Source: Trueperaceae bacterium (GTDB taxonomy: Bacteria; Deinococcota; Deinococci; Deinococcales; Trueperaceae). From it: a stretch of 64,000 nucleotides of DNA. The notes beneath the pieces were generated by a model that was not told the origin of the DNA, did not search any database, and worked only from the letters and a program-made list of their open reading frames with translations. Numbering within the stretch: the stretch's first letter is position 1; the number at the start of each line of letters is the position of its first letter. The stretch spans positions 1 to 64,000 of the forward strand of contig JAMLIB010000009.1 of the NCBI GenBank assembly GCA_023954415.1. The letters are read 5' to 3'. A program made the translations under genes and the position numbers. Below are positions 2,114 through 59,599 of the stretch, piece after piece.

Positions 2114-4320
2114 GGCAGCGAGCGAGGCTTGAGGCCGGTGTGAAGATCTGGTGGGATGGCCAACCGTGGACCGTCACCGGATTATTCGCGGGCGAGATCG
2201 AGGTGCAGGATCTTCGCGGTAAGCGGGCGCGGATCTTGATGAGCGTGGTCACCGAGGCGCCCGACTTCAAAGTCCTGACGGGCGCAGAGCCTGGGGAGGA
2301 GGGCGCGAGCCCCGTCTACTTGGATGCGGTGCCGCCGGAGCTTCTACGGGCAGCCGAGGAGCTGGAACGGCAGCTCATGGAGGCGTTGACGGGGTACCAG
2401 CACGGTTCCCGGGCTCTGGCGCTCGAGCATGAGCCGCGTCCGCAGTATGACCCGGAGTTCACCACCGTGCGGCAGCGGACTACCGCCAAGGCGCGCGAGT
2501 TGGGGATCGGTTTCAGCACGCTCTGGCGCTACAAGCAGAAGTACGAGGAGCGCGGCCTAGTGGGCCTCGTGGACGAGCGCAAACTGAGTCCGCTGAAGGA
2601 CTTCGCGCGGGTGGACGACCGCGTCAAGTTGGCTCTCGGGGCGGTGCTGGACGAGTTGACTGAGGAGTCGAACATCCCCAAGACGCAGTTGCGGCGGCGC
2701 ACGAGGCGGAAGCTCAAGGACTTCTTCCCGGACGAGGCCGTCGAGTTGCCGTCCGAGAAGACGTTCAACAAGCTTGTCGACCGGATGGCGGCCGGGCGCG
2801 GCACCTTCGGGGCGGCCAAGGCGCGCCGCAGCATCGCCAACCGCCCTAGCAACCTCTACCGCTACTTCCAGGTGGTGCGTCCGGGCGAAGTCGTGCTGAT
2901 CGACTCGACCTCCTTGGACGCGTTCGCTCTTGATCCGTTGACCTTCAAGTGGGTGCAGGTGCAGTTGACCATCGCCATGGACTTGTACACCAACTCGCTT
3001 GTGGCGTGGCGGTTCACGCCCGTCTCCACCAAGGGCGTGGACGCCGCGCTGTTGCTCTACGACGTGGTGAGGCCCAAGTTCATGCGTAACGGGTGGCCAG
3101 AGAACGCCCGCTGGTCATACGTGGGCCTGCCGGAAGCCATCGTGGTCGAGCTATTGGGCGATGCGGATCAGAACCTCGACGGGCAAGCGCTAGGCGGTCT
3201 GGCTGGGGTTCCGTTCCTCAACCCGGAAGCCGTGTGGGTGGACCGGGGGCGCGTGTTCATCTCGCGGGCGTTCCGGGACGCGTGCGTGCGGCTCGGGATA
3301 GACCTGCAGCTCGCCCGCCCCTACACCCCGACGGACAAGGCGCAGGTGGAGCGACTGTTCCGCACCATCCGTGACAACTTCGTGGTGAACCTCAAGGGTT
3401 ACAAGGGTCCGGACGTGTACTCCCGCGGCAAGGACGTCGAAAGCGAAGCGTTCTTCTTCATCGACGAGATCGAAGCCGAGTTCGCCGGCTGGGTCGCCAC
3501 CTACTGGCAGAACCGCACCCACGACGGTCTCGAGATCCCCGACCTTCCCAAGATGGACCTGAGCCCCAATCGGATGTACGAGGAAGGGCTAATGCGGGCG
3601 GGCTTCACGTACGTGCTGCCAGATCCCAACCTGTACTTCGAACTGCTGCCGACGGAGTGGCGCAAGATCCAGCATTACGGCATCGACCTGCGCGGCCTGC
3701 GTTACAACAGCGAGGTCCTTGACGAGTGGCGCGACGCGCCCTCGCCCTACCCAAACATCCGCGACGGCGCTTGGCCGATCCGCTACGACCCCCGCGACCT
3801 GTCCGAGGTGTTCTTCCACGATCCTACGCTGGGCGAGTGGCATGCCATCCCCCGGCATGGCGCTTCCCCCGTCAATCGCCCCTTCAACGACGCCACCCTC
3901 AGCTACGCGAAGTCCTTGGTCATCGCGCGCGGTGGCGCCACGGCGGCGGACCGCCGCAGGGAGCTGAACCAGGCGCTCGACGACCTGCTGGATAGGATCG
4001 CGGCGCTGGAGGTCGAGGGTCGCAAGGAGCGCCGCCTTGCCGCCGTGCACGCCATGCGCACCATCGAGGCGCATGAGGAGCGGCGGCGCGCCGCGCCCCA
4101 GCGGCAGGTTGACAGCGTGATGGAGCCCGACGCGGAAGCCGACCTCGATGACCTCTTCGGCCCCGACGAGCCCCTGCAGAATGCGGGCTCACTCGGGCCC
4201 GAAGGCGCGACCGTTCAGGGCTTCCCGGCCGCAGGCGAGCTCGACCCTGAGCCTGAGGAGCCCGGGAGCGAGCCCCGTAAGCGCCTCGCCGTGCTGGACC
4301 CCGATGACTTCAGCGTCTAG
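2110..4320 (+). CDS. tnsB: TnsB-like DDE transposase
   Basis: The 736-residue protein is the TnsB/MuA-type transposase that binds element ends and carries out 3'-end cleavage and strand transfer. N-terminal helix-turn-helix regions (about residues 100-230, including FSTLWRYKQKYEERGLVGL) precede the integrase core. The catalytic triad is readable: D265 in VLIDST, D378 in VWVDRG and E414 in KAQVERLFRTIRDNF. A small beta-barrel region follows (about 500-590), then a charged C-terminal tail (about 620-736) of the kind that contacts TnsC. All catalytic residues are intact, so the gene could be active. It overlaps tnsA by four bases and is followed by tnsC after 36 bases. Confidence 0.93.
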   Translation: MRQRARLEAGVKIWWDGQPWTVTGLFAGEIEVQDLRGKRARILMSVVTEAPDFKVLTGAEPGEEGASPVYLDAVPPELLRAAEELERQLMEALTGYQHGSRALALEHEPRPQYDPEFTTVRQRTTAKARELGIGFSTLWRYKQKYEERGLVGLVDERKLSPLKDFARVDDRVKLALGAVLDELTEESNIPKTQLRRRTRRKLKDFFPDEAVELPSEKTFNKLVDRMAAGRGTFGAAKARRSIANRPSNLYRYFQVVRPGEVVLIDSTSLDAFALDPLTFKWVQVQLTIAMDLYTNSLVAWRFTPVSTKGVDAALLLYDVVRPKFMRNGWPENARWSYVGLPEAIVVELLGDADQNLDGQALGGLAGVPFLNPEAVWVDRGRVFISRAFRDACVRLGIDLQLARPYTPTDKAQVERLFRTIRDNFVVNLKGYKGPDVYSRGKDVESEAFFFIDEIEAEFAGWVATYWQNRTHDGLEIPDLPKMDLSPNRMYEEGLMRAGFTYVLPDPNLYFELLPTEWRKIQHYGIDLRGLRYNSEVLDEWRDAPSPYPNIRDGAWPIRYDPRDLSEVFFHDPTLGEWHAIPRHGASPVNRPFNDATLSYAKSLVIARGGATAADRRRELNQALDDLLDRIAALEVEGRKERRLAAVHAMRTIEAHEERRRAAPQRQVDSVMEPDAEADLDDLFGPDEPLQNAGSLGPEGATVQGFPAAGELDPEPEEPGSEPRKRLAVLDPDDFSV

Positions 4321-4356: not shown

Positions 4357-5526
4357 ATGACCATAGCCGACGTGGTGGACAACATGCTTGCCAACTTCTC
4401 CGACCTGTTGGCCGAGGACGTTCCGTTCGCGCGGGAGAACCCCGAGAACTACGTGGCGTGGCGCGAGTTCGTTGCCAGGCCCGATCCGAAGAAGCCGCTC
4501 TTGCCTTCCATGGCGCAGTACCAGGCGATGAGCGACGCGGAGAAGGCCTCGTTCGACCTGGCGCGGAAGATGTACCACAACACCTTCGGGCCGCTCACCT
4601 CCCGCACCATGAAGAAGGTTCACGACCAGGTGATCCGCCTCGCGTGGGACAACCTCCGCACCGCTCCCGGGGCCCGTCAGGGCGCGATCGTGGACGGGCA
4701 AGCCACGCTCGGCAAGACCACCATCGTGCTGCACATGGGCCGCATCTACGAGGGGCTGGCGCAGCGCGCCTACGAGGGCAAGGGCCTGCACGGAACCCAC
4801 GTCGAGTTCATCCCGGTGGTCTACAGCAGCGTTCCCTCGAGCACCACGCCCAAGAAGCTGCTGCAGGCATTGAACAAGTTCTACGGCAATCCCTTCGCGG
4901 AGCGCGACTCCGAAGCGAAGCTGAAGAGCCGGCTACACGACATCGCCGTGCAGTGCGGCACCAGCCTGTTCATCCTCGATGACATCCACAACCTGCACCG
5001 CGGCAACAAGAGCGCCGACAGCGTCAACGACCTCATCAAGGAACTCGCGAACCTGATCCCCGCGACGTTCGTTTACGCCGGCATCAACTGCGAGGACTCG
5101 GTGCTGCTGATGGACAGCCGCACCGGGGGGAAGGGCCGCTTCACCCAGACCCAGTACCGCTTCGCTCTGCACAAGGTCGACCCGTTCCCGTACGACGTCC
5201 ATCTGGCGGGCAAGTCGGCGTGGCTGGAGTTCCTCGCGAGCGTCGAAGAGCACCTGTGCCTGATCGAGTACAGGCCCGGCTGGCTGGTGCAGCAGGAGCG
5301 CTACCTCTACCTCCGTACCGAAGGCGGCATCGGCAGCCTGATCCGGCTGGTGCGCGCCGCCGCCAACGCGGCGATCCGGGACGGCAGTGAGACCCTGTCC
5401 CGGGCTGGCCTTGAAAACATCCGGCTCGCGGAGGGCGCCGAACGCTACTACGCCGAGAAGAAGGCGGCCCTCGCGGCCATCAAGGACTCCCCGGAAGCGG
5501 TCGCGCGCCTCCTCAATGCCTCATGA
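4357..5526 (+). CDS. tnsC: TnsC-like AAA+ ATPase
   Basis: This 389-residue AAA+ ATPase is the regulator that forms filaments on target DNA and links TniQ to the TnsAB transposase. It has a Walker A motif DGQATLGKTT with K120 and a Walker B motif SLFILDDIHNL with D208 and D209. The P-loop is non-standard (GQATLGKT rather than GxxGxGKT), as is often so in TnsC. I start at ATG 4357, nine bases after the start of GGGAGG; a TTG directly upstream is less likely. The stop overlaps the tniQ start (ATGA at 5523-5526). Confidence 0.9.
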   Translation: MTIADVVDNMLANFSDLLAEDVPFARENPENYVAWREFVARPDPKKPLLPSMAQYQAMSDAEKASFDLARKMYHNTFGPLTSRTMKKVHDQVIRLAWDNLRTAPGARQGAIVDGQATLGKTTIVLHMGRIYEGLAQRAYEGKGLHGTHVEFIPVVYSSVPSSTTPKKLLQALNKFYGNPFAERDSEAKLKSRLHDIAVQCGTSLFILDDIHNLHRGNKSADSVNDLIKELANLIPATFVYAGINCEDSVLLMDSRTGGKGRFTQTQYRFALHKVDPFPYDVHLAGKSAWLEFLASVEEHLCLIEYRPGWLVQQERYLYLRTEGGIGSLIRLVRAAANAAIRDGSETLSRAGLENIRLAEGAERYYAEKKAALAAIKDSPEAVARLLNAS

Positions 5527-54868: not shown

Positions 54869-54910
54869 GGTGGGTGCGCCCGGGTGGGTGCGCCCCGGTG
54901 GGTGCGCCCG
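54869..54910. repeat. three tandem 14-bp GC-rich repeats
   Basis: GGTGGGTGCGCCC recurs at 54869, 54883 and 54897 with an exact 14-base period, in the 188-base space upstream of the MFS gene. The number of units could vary between strains. The repeat lies before the likely promoter and may have no function. Confidence 0.7.
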
Positions 54911-54983
54911 GATGTGCGGTGAAGGAGCGCCCGCCGGCCCGAGCGGGACGGTCCACTCCCGCGGTCCGCTACATTGGGTGAAC

Positions 54984-56333
54984 ATGCTCGGTACCCGTTC
55001 ACTCCCCAGGGCTTTGCGTCCGTTCGAGACGGGCCAGTACCGCTTGCTCGCCGGCGCCCTGGTGGCGTCGCTCTTCGGCTCGGGCGTGTGGGCGGTCGCC
55101 ATGGTCTGGGAGGTCATCGCCCTGGGCGGCGGGCCCACCCAGCTCTCCGCCGTCGCCGCGGCCGGGGCGGTCGGCATCCTCGGCGCCGTGCTCATCGGCG
55201 GCGCCGTCGCGGACCGCGTGCCCCAGAAGCGCATCCTCTTCACGGTCGAGTTCTGCAAGTCGCTCGTCGTCGGCACCGTGGCCGTGCTCGCCCTGACCGG
55301 CAACCTCGAGGTCCGCTACCTCGTCGTGGCGGCGCTCGTCCTCGGTGTGGCCGACGCGTTCTTCTACCCGGCCTACTCCGCCCTGCTGCCCGCCATCCTG
55401 CCGCCGCAGCAGCTGCTGGCCGCCAACGGGCTCGAGGGCATGTTGCGCCCCGCGATCCAGGCGGCCGGCGGGCCGGCGCTCGCCGGGGTGCTCATAGCCG
55501 TCAGCTCACCGGCCCACGCCCTCCTCGGCGTGGCGCTCTTCCAGCTCCTGGCCGCCGTCGGGCTCCTCTCGCTCAAGCGGACGTCCGTCCGGCGTGACGT
55601 CGCCTCAGGCGGCAACCCGCTCGTCGCGGCTCTGACGGACATCCGCGACGGCCTCCTGTACATGGTCAGGACCCCGTGGATCCTGGCGACCCTGCTCTTC
55701 GCGTGCGTCATGCTGCTCGTCATCATGGGACCCATCCAGGTCCTCCTGCCGTTCATCGTGCAGGGCCGCCTCGGCGGCGACGCAGGGGCGTTCGCGGCCA
55801 CGCTGGCCGCGTACGGGGTGGGCGGCGGGGTGGGCTCGCTGCTCATGGCCTCCTGGCGGCTGCCGCGCCGGTACCTCACGGTCATGGTGCTCCTCTGGGG
55901 CCTCGGGAGCCTGCCCCTCCTCGTGGTCGGCTTCGTGACGAGCCTCTGGCCCCTCCTCGCGACGATGTTCGTGATCGGGGCGGTGACGTCCGGCGCCAAC
56001 GTCATCTGGGGCACGTTGCTCCAGCGCAGGGTGCCGCCGGAGCTGCTCGGCCGCGTCTCGAGCCTCGACTTCTTCGTCTCCCTCGCGCTGATGCCCGTCT
56101 CGATGGCGCTCGCCGGCCCCGTCGGCGAACGCCTCGGCATGACCACTACGTTCGCCGTGGCGGCGTTGGTGCCGCCCGTGCTGGCCGTGATCGCCATCTT
56201 CGCGGCCCGCATGCCTCAGGACGAGTTGGCGCATCCGGTGCATGACGCGCACCCGCCTGGCCACGCCTTGGCGCAACTGGCCGACGAGGCCCTCGGCGTC
56301 TCCGGTGAGCTCCAGGAGGACCAGGGCCCCTAG
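54984..56333 (+). CDS. MFS transporter
   Basis: 449 residues from ATG 54984: about 12 helices, the MFS loop IGGAVADRVPQKRILFTVEF and a second-half loop (WRLPRRYLTVMVLLWGLGSL). The pattern PFETGQYRLLAGALVASLFG and AANGLEGMLRPAIQAAGGPA is typical of the MFS_3/DUF894 group of drug or enterobactin-type exporters. Substrate unknown. A hydrophilic C-terminal tail (HPVHDAHPPGHALAQL) follows. TACATT (54970-54975) lies eight bases before the ATG and there is no Shine-Dalgarno, so the message is probably leaderless. GTG 54978 is an alternative start. Confidence 0.85.
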   Translation: MLGTRSLPRALRPFETGQYRLLAGALVASLFGSGVWAVAMVWEVIALGGGPTQLSAVAAAGAVGILGAVLIGGAVADRVPQKRILFTVEFCKSLVVGTVAVLALTGNLEVRYLVVAALVLGVADAFFYPAYSALLPAILPPQQLLAANGLEGMLRPAIQAAGGPALAGVLIAVSSPAHALLGVALFQLLAAVGLLSLKRTSVRRDVASGGNPLVAALTDIRDGLLYMVRTPWILATLLFACVMLLVIMGPIQVLLPFIVQGRLGGDAGAFAATLAAYGVGGGVGSLLMASWRLPRRYLTVMVLLWGLGSLPLLVVGFVTSLWPLLATMFVIGAVTSGANVIWGTLLQRRVPPELLGRVSSLDFFVSLALMPVSMALAGPVGERLGMTTTFAVAALVPPVLAVIAIFAARMPQDELAHPVHDAHPPGHALAQLADEALGVSGELQEDQGP

Positions 56334-56439: not shown

Positions 56440-56463
56440 TGATAATAATTAGGAGTCCTAATT
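56440..56463 (+). promoter_or_regulatory. extended -10 promoter followed by a perfect 17-bp palindrome (candidate MarR operator)
   Basis: TGATAATAAT (56440-56449) is an extended -10 type element in an AT-rich patch. The perfect inverted repeat AATTAGGA-G-TCCTAATT (56447-56463) overlaps its end and finishes just before the GGAGG ribosome site of the next gene. A protein bound there would block transcription. The MarR-type regulator gene lies second in this operon, so autoregulation is likely. Confidence 0.75.
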
Positions 56464-56477
56464 GATTGGAGGACTCC

Positions 56478-57230
56478 ATGCCCACATCCGTCCGTTCGTC
56501 CCTGACCGCCAAGTCGCTACTGCTGGCGTTCCTGCTCGTGGTCGCAGGCCCTGCGGCCGCCCAGGTCGCCCCGGAGCCCCTGGCCATGACGCCCGACCTA
56601 GACCTGCAAACGGCGTCTGTGACGTACCTCGAGGACCTGGACCTGCTCGTGTTCGAGGTCGAGGTGGCCGGCGCCGCGGGGGGAACGACACCGGCGGCCC
56701 GCGGGCAGGTCGACGGCGCGCCCGTCCTCGCCTACGCCTTCCCGACGACGCTGCCTGCGACCGCGGTCGGCTTCGGCGCCGTGGACGGCGTGCTCACGTT
56801 GGCCGTCACCGTCCACCCGGACTTCGACGACACCCCGTTGTGGGACGAGGACGGCGACTACGACTACGCCAACGACGGCTGGGTCTTCCACACCCACTGG
56901 GTCGTGCTGGCGCCGGACGACCGCGTGGCCGGCGGGTTGTCGGCCGTCGAGTTCGAGCCCGGTTCCGGCGCTACGCTCCCGCCGACCAACGCAGGTATGC
57001 CCATGTACCTCGACTCGCCGGGGTTCTCGGTAGTCGTCGACGGCCCGCACCTGCGCGTCCTCGTGCCGGCGCAGAGGGTGAGGGGGCGGACCGAGTTCGG
57101 CTTCGACGCCGTGGCCGCCTACCTGCAAGTGAACACGAGCGACGAAGGCCGGCCCATGCTCGGCGTGTACGCCGTGTACGACGTGCTCTCCGGCGACCTC
57201 AGCCTGCCGTACCAGGTCACCGTCCGCTGA
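56478..57230 (+). CDS. secreted protein, unknown, MarR-linked
   Basis: 250 residues with a signal peptide (TAKSLLLAFLLVVAGPAAAQ) and a beta-rich mature part. YLEDLDLLVFEVEVAGAAGG, YAFPTTLPATAVGFGAVDGV and a conserved-looking acid and His patch (HPDFDDTPLWDEDGDYDYAN, DGWVFHTHWVVLAPDD) could bind metal. No family name comes to mind. GGAGG (56468-56472) stands five bases before ATG 56478. The MarR regulator gene follows after 43 bases, so both share the palindromic promoter. Confidence 0.68.
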   Translation: MPTSVRSSLTAKSLLLAFLLVVAGPAAAQVAPEPLAMTPDLDLQTASVTYLEDLDLLVFEVEVAGAAGGTTPAARGQVDGAPVLAYAFPTTLPATAVGFGAVDGVLTLAVTVHPDFDDTPLWDEDGDYDYANDGWVFHTHWVVLAPDDRVAGGLSAVEFEPGSGATLPPTNAGMPMYLDSPGFSVVVDGPHLRVLVPAQRVRGRTEFGFDAVAAYLQVNTSDEGRPMLGVYAVYDVLSGDLSLPYQVTVR

Positions 57231-57273
57231 GCTTGGGCGCGGGTCAGGGGGTAGAGGTACCATCACGACGACG

Positions 57274-57897
57274 GTGCCCGGAACCTTCGACCTGGATGAC
57301 CAGCACTCGGACCTGAACGCCAAGGTCGTCGCGGCCCTCGAGCGCCTCGGCACGGCCCTGCGTGGGCTGCTGCGCGCCGAGGCGAGGAAGCACGGCCTCA
57401 GCCCCATCCAACTGCAACTACTCATCCAGATCGGCCAGCGCGCCGCCGACGAGCAGGTCGGCGCGCTGGCCGAACGCTTCGACGTGACCGCCCCGACGGT
57501 GAGCGACGCCGTCGCGTCGCTGACGGCGAAAGGGCTCGTGGAGCGCCGCGCGGGCCAGGACCGCCGCACCGTGCTGCTCGCGCTGACGGAGCGGGGAGAG
57601 GGCGTGAAGCGCGCCGCGGAAGGGTGGGCCGACGGCGTGACGAGGCACGTGGCCGACCTCGCCCCCGCGGTGCGTTACGCCGTCTTCGACGGGCTCACGG
57701 CGCTGATCGAACGGCTGCATGACGACGGGGTCGTGACAGTGGCGCGAATGTGCCGGACCTGCCGGTTCCTGCGTGGGGGAAGCGCGCTCCAGGAAGCTAC
57801 CTTCGCCGGGTCGGCACCGTACTGGTGTGCGCTCCTCGAGATCCCGCTACGGAACGAGGACCTGCGCGTCGACTGCCCCGAGCACCGACCGAGATAG
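57274..57897 (+). CDS. MarR family regulator with cysteine-rich C-terminal extension
   Basis: 207 residues. Residues 1-145 are a MarR winged helix: KHGLSPIQLQLLIQIGQRAA, FDVTAPTVSDAVASLTAKGL and VERRAGQDRRTVLLALTERG. After that an unusual C-terminal extension carries MCRTCRFLRGG, YWCALLEIPL and LRVDCPEHRPR, a C-x2-C...C...C-P-E-H arrangement suited to bind zinc or an iron-sulfur cluster as a redox or metal sensor. GTG 57274 is used as start. It probably regulates its own operon through the palindrome at 56447-56463. Confidence 0.82.
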   Translation: MPGTFDLDDQHSDLNAKVVAALERLGTALRGLLRAEARKHGLSPIQLQLLIQIGQRAADEQVGALAERFDVTAPTVSDAVASLTAKGLVERRAGQDRRTVLLALTERGEGVKRAAEGWADGVTRHVADLAPAVRYAVFDGLTALIERLHDDGVVTVARMCRTCRFLRGGSALQEATFAGSAPYWCALLEIPLRNEDLRVDCPEHRPR

Positions 57898-59077: not shown

Positions 59078-59599
59078 TTACTGCATAGGGGCCTCGGCGC
59101 CGCCCGGCTGGTCGGCGGCGCGACCAAGACCCGTGCCCTGCGGGGTGACCAGGAACCACACGTCGTTGGCGCCCTGCCCGGTCGTGTCGCCAGGCAGCTG
59201 GTCGCCGCGGAAGTAGTAGAGCGGCCAGCCGTTGTACGTGAGCTGAAGGGTGCCGTCGGCACGCTCCGCGGTGCCGAGCAACGCAGCGTCGAACTCGTCG
59301 GAGACGGTCGGCAGGGCCTGCGCGTCGGCCACCAGGACGGGTGGCCAGTTCGCGGCGCAGGCGTCGCTACAGTTGCTCACGTTGCTCGTGTCGTTCAGGA
59401 AGAGGTAGAGCGAGCGGCCTTCGGCGTCCACCACGTAGGTGGCGCCGTCTTCGGCGGTGGCCACCGCCAGGCTGGCCGTCGGCGCGACCGCTTGGGCTAA
59501 GGCGAGCGTCGCGAGGGTCAGCGCTCCGAGCAGCAGAGCGCCGGTCGTCAGTCGGGTGAGGCGGTCGACAGGGCGGGGGCTGGCTAGTCGTTCCTTCAT
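59078..59599 (-). CDS. secreted protein with Yx(FWY)xxD motifs (Lipoprotein_15 type)
   Basis: 173 residues with signal peptide (LTTGALLLGALTLATLALAQ). Two motif copies are seen: GRSLYLFLNDTSNVSNCSDA with C-x3-C and ANWPPVLV, and GWPLYYFRGDQLPGDTTGQG ending NDVWFLVTP. These are the hallmarks of the COG4315/PF03640 family of secreted repeat proteins, of unknown function. There is no lipobox cysteine at the expected place. It reads from ATG 59599 and ends before a shared terminator. Confidence 0.85.
   Translation of the reverse strand: MKERLASPRPVDRLTRLTTGALLLGALTLATLALAQAVAPTASLAVATAEDGATYVVDAEGRSLYLFLNDTSNVSNCSDACAANWPPVLVADAQALPTVSDEFDAALLGTAERADGTLQLTYNGWPLYYFRGDQLPGDTTGQGANDVWFLVTPQGTGLGRAADQPGGAEAPMQ

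Follow-up and report, generated by a model that had tools for sequence, protein, structure and literature searches.

A palindromic operator ahead of a Cys4-tailed MarR regulator and an unnamed secreted protein, a candidate reactive-nitrogen stress operon in Trueperaceae and other bacteria

In the window, a stretch of 64 kb of DNA from a Trueperaceae bacterium, we detected two adjacent genes on the forward strand. The first (56478..57230) encodes a secreted protein of 250 aa from an unnamed family, with an N-terminus that by eye resembles a signal peptide and with the motifs HPDFDD and HxHWVVL; a ribosome-binding site, GGAGG (56468..56472, forward strand), lies 5 bases before its ATG. The second (57274..57897) starts with GTG 43 bp past the first ORF and encodes a MarR-family regulator of 207 aa that scores above the cut-offs of PF12802 (47.6 bits, cut-off 27) and PF01047 (29 bits, cut-off 24.6). 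The earlier note on this DNA had placed the MarR gene second in the operon, and this arrangement holds. Upstream and outside the operon is an MFS exporter gene (54870-56333), which matches a Tet(V)-type model with 437 bits, below the cut-off of 640. Also near the unit, a gene on the reverse strand (59078-59599) encodes a secreted-repeat protein that matches the Lipoprotein_15 family with 101.7 bits; it lacks the operator described below.

The 144-bp gap between the end of the MFS gene (56333) and the ATG at 56478 contains a perfect 17-bp palindrome, AATTAGGA-G-TCCTAATT (56447..56463, 8+1+8 bp, not assigned to a strand). It is exact, as described earlier, and intergenic; it is also the sole match in the 64-kb window at up to three mismatches (0 expected), and its core, TTAGGANTCCTAA, has no second match in the 3.2-Mb genome at up to one mismatch. 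The window contains 16 perfect palindromes with 8-bp arms, so that such arms are unremarkable per se, and dinucleotide shuffling of the 144-bp gap yielded an equally long one in 45 of 5000 trials. With 29% GC, the palindrome at 56447-56463 is the most AT-rich of the 16, in agreement with the AT-rich spot noted before. The 3' half of the operator is able to pair with the ribosome-binding region (56452-56477; GGAGTCCT/AGGACTCC, 10-nt loop). A leader hairpin covering the ribosome-binding site was dropped as a candidate, the folding energy against shuffles giving a z of -0.07.

Directly abutting the operator core is a -10-like element, TG-A-TAATAA (56440..56448, forward strand). Here, TGATAATAA stops where TTAGGA starts, at the position that matches TATTAT or TATTAA of relatives, which makes the claimed overlap of the palindrome with the -10 region plausible; no consensus -35 was found in the window promoter. 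Among relatives, TTGACA or TTGACG is frequently found 16-18 bp upstream of the -10 at the operator, and the typical Thermaceae promoter consists of TTGACA-N17-TATTAT followed immediately by TTAGGAGTCCTAA and a ribosome-binding site. Matches to TTGACA-N16-18-TATAAT were scored at 36 loci that have a site with at most two mismatches (L135 among them is probably spurious). A score of at least 9 of 12, with the -10 terminating at the operator or close to it, was reached at 23 of the 36; random positions taken from these loci reach it in 0.28% of cases. The operator lies where a repressor site would sit, and a protein occupying it would prevent initiation. Because the site is ahead of an operon that contains marR, the predicted loop is one of negative autoregulation.

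A scan for the motif, proposed in the earlier note for this genome, was run on 151 genomes; 23 of them contain the exact core, each a single time. It precedes an operon with a Cys-tailed MarR in 20 of the 23, but not in G008, G131 (where it is inside a gene) or G149. A reversed control pattern has matches in 15 of these 151 genomes; a hit taken singly therefore carries little weight, and the evidence lies in its position. Deinococcota genomes with a tail matching the family profile number 28, and 24 of them have the site, exact in 20 and with one mismatch in 4; the other four are G041, G076 and G081, in which the MarR is matched only in part, and G108, with no P460 gene at that place. We also read 54 loci, 53 of them with a MarR gene; several are near-duplicates (e.g. 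L059/L060, L056/L057, L092/L093), and the window genome (G000) shares its genus with G005, for which contig C11 and CALMXZ010000011.1 were counted once. Of the best sites in the 53 MarR loci, 31 have one mismatch or none; at a sensible position, 4 have two mismatches and 1 (Tistrella) has three. A second palindrome type is present in 3 loci, and 14, mostly distant homologs with other neighbours, have neither operator. The 31 loci include Bacteroidota (L038), Alphaproteobacteria (L040, L044 and L087) and Thermaceae, as well as two more beyond the Deinococcota, L132 (with P460) and L134 (with protoglobin), confirming across several phyla that the palindrome is conserved upstream of homologous operons.

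The palindrome might instead be due to chance or belong to another regulator, for instance that of the upstream MFS gene, with the MarR protein acting elsewhere. This would fit the number of 8-bp-arm palindromes in the window (16) and the 15 genomes matched by the reversed control, but the position ahead of the MarR operon is kept across phyla while the neighbours change, and the MFS gene is already complete upstream of the site. This explanation is strongly disfavoured, and we regard it as very improbable. On a Novosphingobium plasmid (L040), near-exact operators are found at 3403, ahead of the MarR gene, and at 4044, ahead of thioredoxin-TlpA genes, which suggests a two-promoter regulon. Three Thermaceae loci or genomes (L146, L147 and G081) have partial Cys4 MarR matches and no operator, as if the unit were decaying there.

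In Phaeobacter, Vibrio campbellii and one further genome (G192), the secreted-protein gene runs divergently from the gene of a Cys4 MarR regulator that belongs to a second clade. The shared gap contains a palindrome of another type, TATCGA-N-TCGATA (TATCGANTCGATA), with a layout as in the first type and with two copies in Phaeobacter and in G192. The regions that we take, from the MarR fold, to be the recognition helices also differ (TAPTVSDAV in the window, TRGTMSQTL in Phaeobacter and TKGTVSQSL in Vibrio). The site thus changes with the regulator while the output gene stays, which supports the pairing of MarR and operator, and the operator exchange that has occurred naturally between the clades lends itself directly to testing recognition. 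Together with the position of the operator relative to promoters, it lends support to the sensor-operator-output unit envisaged at the outset. On a Leisingera plasmid (L088), which lacks a MarR gene within 5 kb, two partly matching sites of the second type (4675-4720) are located ahead of the secreted-protein gene, suggesting regulation in trans.

The C-terminal Cys4 tail of the regulator (57751..57885, forward strand) comprises C160-x2-C163, C185 and C201-x2-H204, and corresponds to the C-x2-C...C...CPEH extension reported before. The four cysteines are invariant in 22 aligned homologs and, as a check of tail conservation, were found in 53 of the 53 loci, although this count is partly circular because the tail profile was built from 22 such sequences. 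A terminal C-x2-[HFYW] is present as well in 51 of the 53. We detected the tail in 42 of 390 genomes, and profile searches with it against Pfam and PDB gave nothing above chance level. The arrangement CxxC-x(n)-C-x(about 15)-C-x2-H could be a ligand set for Zn or an Fe-S cluster. A structure prediction of the MarR protein from a two-row alignment was too poor for use (mean pLDDT 40.0). By domain the regulator belongs to the MarR family, and by model scores it is not Rrf2/NsrR (PF02082, 14 bits against a cut-off of 30), AdcR (zinc MarR model NF038251, 17.4 bits against 175) or OhrR (NF052638, 20 bits against 200). The OhrR-type MarR oxidative regulators are winged-helix autorepressors with a palindromic operator, and their sensing cysteine is N-terminal; to our knowledge they have no Cys4 tail, unlike the window regulator.

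The secreted protein is rare (6 of 390 genomes). Its gene adjoins a Cys4 MarR gene in 14 of the 15 loci read, the exception being Leisingera L088 (a short copy in G102 was not counted). Matches were also found in 87 plasmid records, mostly from Phaeobacter, nine of which were examined in context; no homolog was found in viral contigs. Searches of the protein and its family against Pfam, NCBIfam and PDB gave no significant match, the PDB profile search remaining at chance level, and its structure prediction from a two-row alignment was too poor for use (mean pLDDT 41.1). Across 15 homologs, 40 residues are invariant, including H113-P-D115, D118, H138-x-H140-W-V-V-L, D179 and D210. The Asp/His patch pointed out in the earlier note (H113, D115, D118, H138 and H140) is thus conserved, and the protein perhaps binds metal.

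This His/Asp set, together with the four cysteines and the histidine of the tail, would also suit a metal-homeostasis switch in which Zn, Fe or Cu is sensed directly by the tail and is also the metal bound by the secreted protein. We consider such a switch improbable: no metal transporter recurs among the annotated neighbours, the P460 and protoglobin outputs described below are unsuited to it, and the score on the zinc MarR model is only 17.4 against a cut-off of 175.

The genes that accompany the same operator and regulator favour another signal, reactive nitrogen. In Thermaceae, the outputs are cytochrome P460 (PF16694) and protoglobin (PF11563), each of which is also the output in one genome outside Deinococcota (L132 and L134, respectively). 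In T. thermophilus HB27, a P460-family protein whose whole chain matches PDB 7ead and 8brk is encoded directly upstream of the MarR gene. In genus g20, the operon adjoins genes for a radical-SAM protein (NirJ-like) and cytochrome d1 (NirS); NirJ/NirS-type genes are adjacent in Thermus-like genomes. The Defluviimonas cluster faces genes for NnrS, nitronate monooxygenase, DUF488, hemerythrin and a group III truncated hemoglobin (trHb III). Hymenobacter has catalase, HTHP (PF11534) and protoglobin in this context, thioredoxin or TlpA genes are the output in Sphingomonadaceae, and MOSC and redoxin genes are recurring neighbours. In both Bacteroidota operons, an unnamed protein of about 90 aa is encoded directly upstream of MarR (L037, 3197-3484; L038, 3219-3485); the copy from Hymenobacter matches nothing in Pfam.

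Members of the P460, protoglobin, NnrS and hemerythrin families deal with NO or hydroxylamine, a role that is covered in part in PMC11928373. Taken together, the neighbours favour NO or hydroxylamine as the signal rather than peroxide, metal or sulfur stress, although they are also compatible with peroxide, sulfur or general thiol stress. The same operator-repressor unit might sense oxidants (peroxide, HOCl or thiol stress), with the Cys4 as a structural or redox Zn site. The catalase and HTHP genes of Hymenobacter and the thioredoxin, TlpA or redoxin neighbours in Sphingomonadaceae, Tistrella, Shinella and Defluviimonas speak for this alternative, which we nevertheless find rather unlikely, given that the P460, protoglobin, NnrS, hemerythrin and trHb neighbours indicate NO or hydroxylamine.

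The distribution of nitrite reductases agrees in part with a reactive-nitrogen signal. The window genome encodes NirK above the cut-off. Within genus g20, 17 genomes have the Cys4 MarR, and 15 of them also NirS (>100 bits); of the 10 that lack this MarR, 1 has NirS (p=1e-4). These counts are not independent, since NirS and MarR genes are physically linked in this genus. Among 111 Deinococcota genomes, NirS or NirK is present in 18 of the 28 with the Cys4 MarR and in 30 of the 83 without it (p=0.015, kinship ignored), a weak link. The Cys4 MarR is absent from a family of NirS-rich relatives (f3).

Of the systems described before, the closest working analogue is ArnR of Corynebacterium, likened to the window regulator by description and differing in cysteine pattern. 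According to PMC12343034, ArnR is a [4Fe-4S] NO sensor that represses narKGHJI and hmp, that is, genes of nitrogen-oxide metabolism and defence. It joins an N-terminal winged helix of the MarR/ArsR kind to a cysteine-bearing sensory region at the C-terminus, whose [4Fe-4S] cluster reacts with NO. The same paper gives three conserved cysteines (179, 193 and 223), among which there is no CxxC, and the window regulator, with C160-x2-C163, C185 and C201, does not share this spacing. ArnR is described there as almost confined to Actinobacteria, with a C-terminal region without significant homology.

NsrR, including NsrR-Th of Thermus thermophilus, is likewise a small Cys-cluster regulator of nitrite and NO genes (PMC5748679), and the genus Thermus also carries the Cys4 MarR beside nir genes. 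NsrR differs in belonging to the BadM/Rrf2 family, on whose model the window MarR reaches the 14 bits given above against 30, and in its motif, CTTGACCNNGGTCATGG, which is unlike TTAGGANTCCTAA (PMC5748679). A Thermus gene named as 'norR MarR-family' (PMC9270275) was not equated with the Cys4 MarR; PMC5748679 gives the Thermus NO regulator as BadM/Rrf2. CioR of Chromobacterium violaceum, a GbsR-type MarR, resembles the proposed regulator as an autorepressor of an operon for resistance to NO, cyanide and sulfide (PMC11837568). Its output is cytochrome bd, and the passages of PMC11837568 on it describe no Cys4 tail. Searches of the open-licence PMC literature, in which subscription work may be missed, gave no recognisable description of the TTAGGANTCCTAA motif or of a Cys4-tailed MarR, and none of the control of T. 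thermophilus c'-beta.

The conservation and position of the operator, the conservation of the Cys4 set and the linkage of the genes are properties of the sequences themselves; the repression, the cofactor, the signal and the function of the secreted protein we infer. We think that the unit is probably a negatively autoregulated reactive-nitrogen stress operon with the Cys4 tail (Zn or Fe-S) as sensor. A MarR dimer on TTAGGA-N-TCCTAA would cover the transcription start just past the -10 box and bar RNA polymerase from the operon of the secreted protein and marR. The Cys4 site would carry Zn or, slightly favoured, an iron-sulfur cluster, and would react with reactive nitrogen species such as NO, perhaps hydroxylamine or HNO. 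This reaction would loosen DNA binding, so that an exported protein acting against that species and the repressor would both be made. Since P460/c'-beta, protoglobin and thioredoxin-type genes replace or accompany the secreted protein, the outputs probably serve one defence.

The finding stands and is wider than first described, with good comparative support for the unit; the link to reactive nitrogen was not part of the earlier note. A more specific proposal, which we put forward as tentative, is that MarR regulators across phyla use a C-terminal Cys4 [Fe-S] site to sense NO or hydroxylamine and induce a family of secreted metalloproteins that does the job of P460/c'-beta and protoglobin. The unnamed secreted family is hereby marked as a candidate reactive-nitrogen defence protein, and the P460-family cytochrome (c'-beta) of T. 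thermophilus, with structures 7ead and 8brk, gains a predicted regulator, operator and regulon. If true, a MarR protein that carries its Fe-S or Zn sensor at the C-terminus would add one more way of sensing NO.
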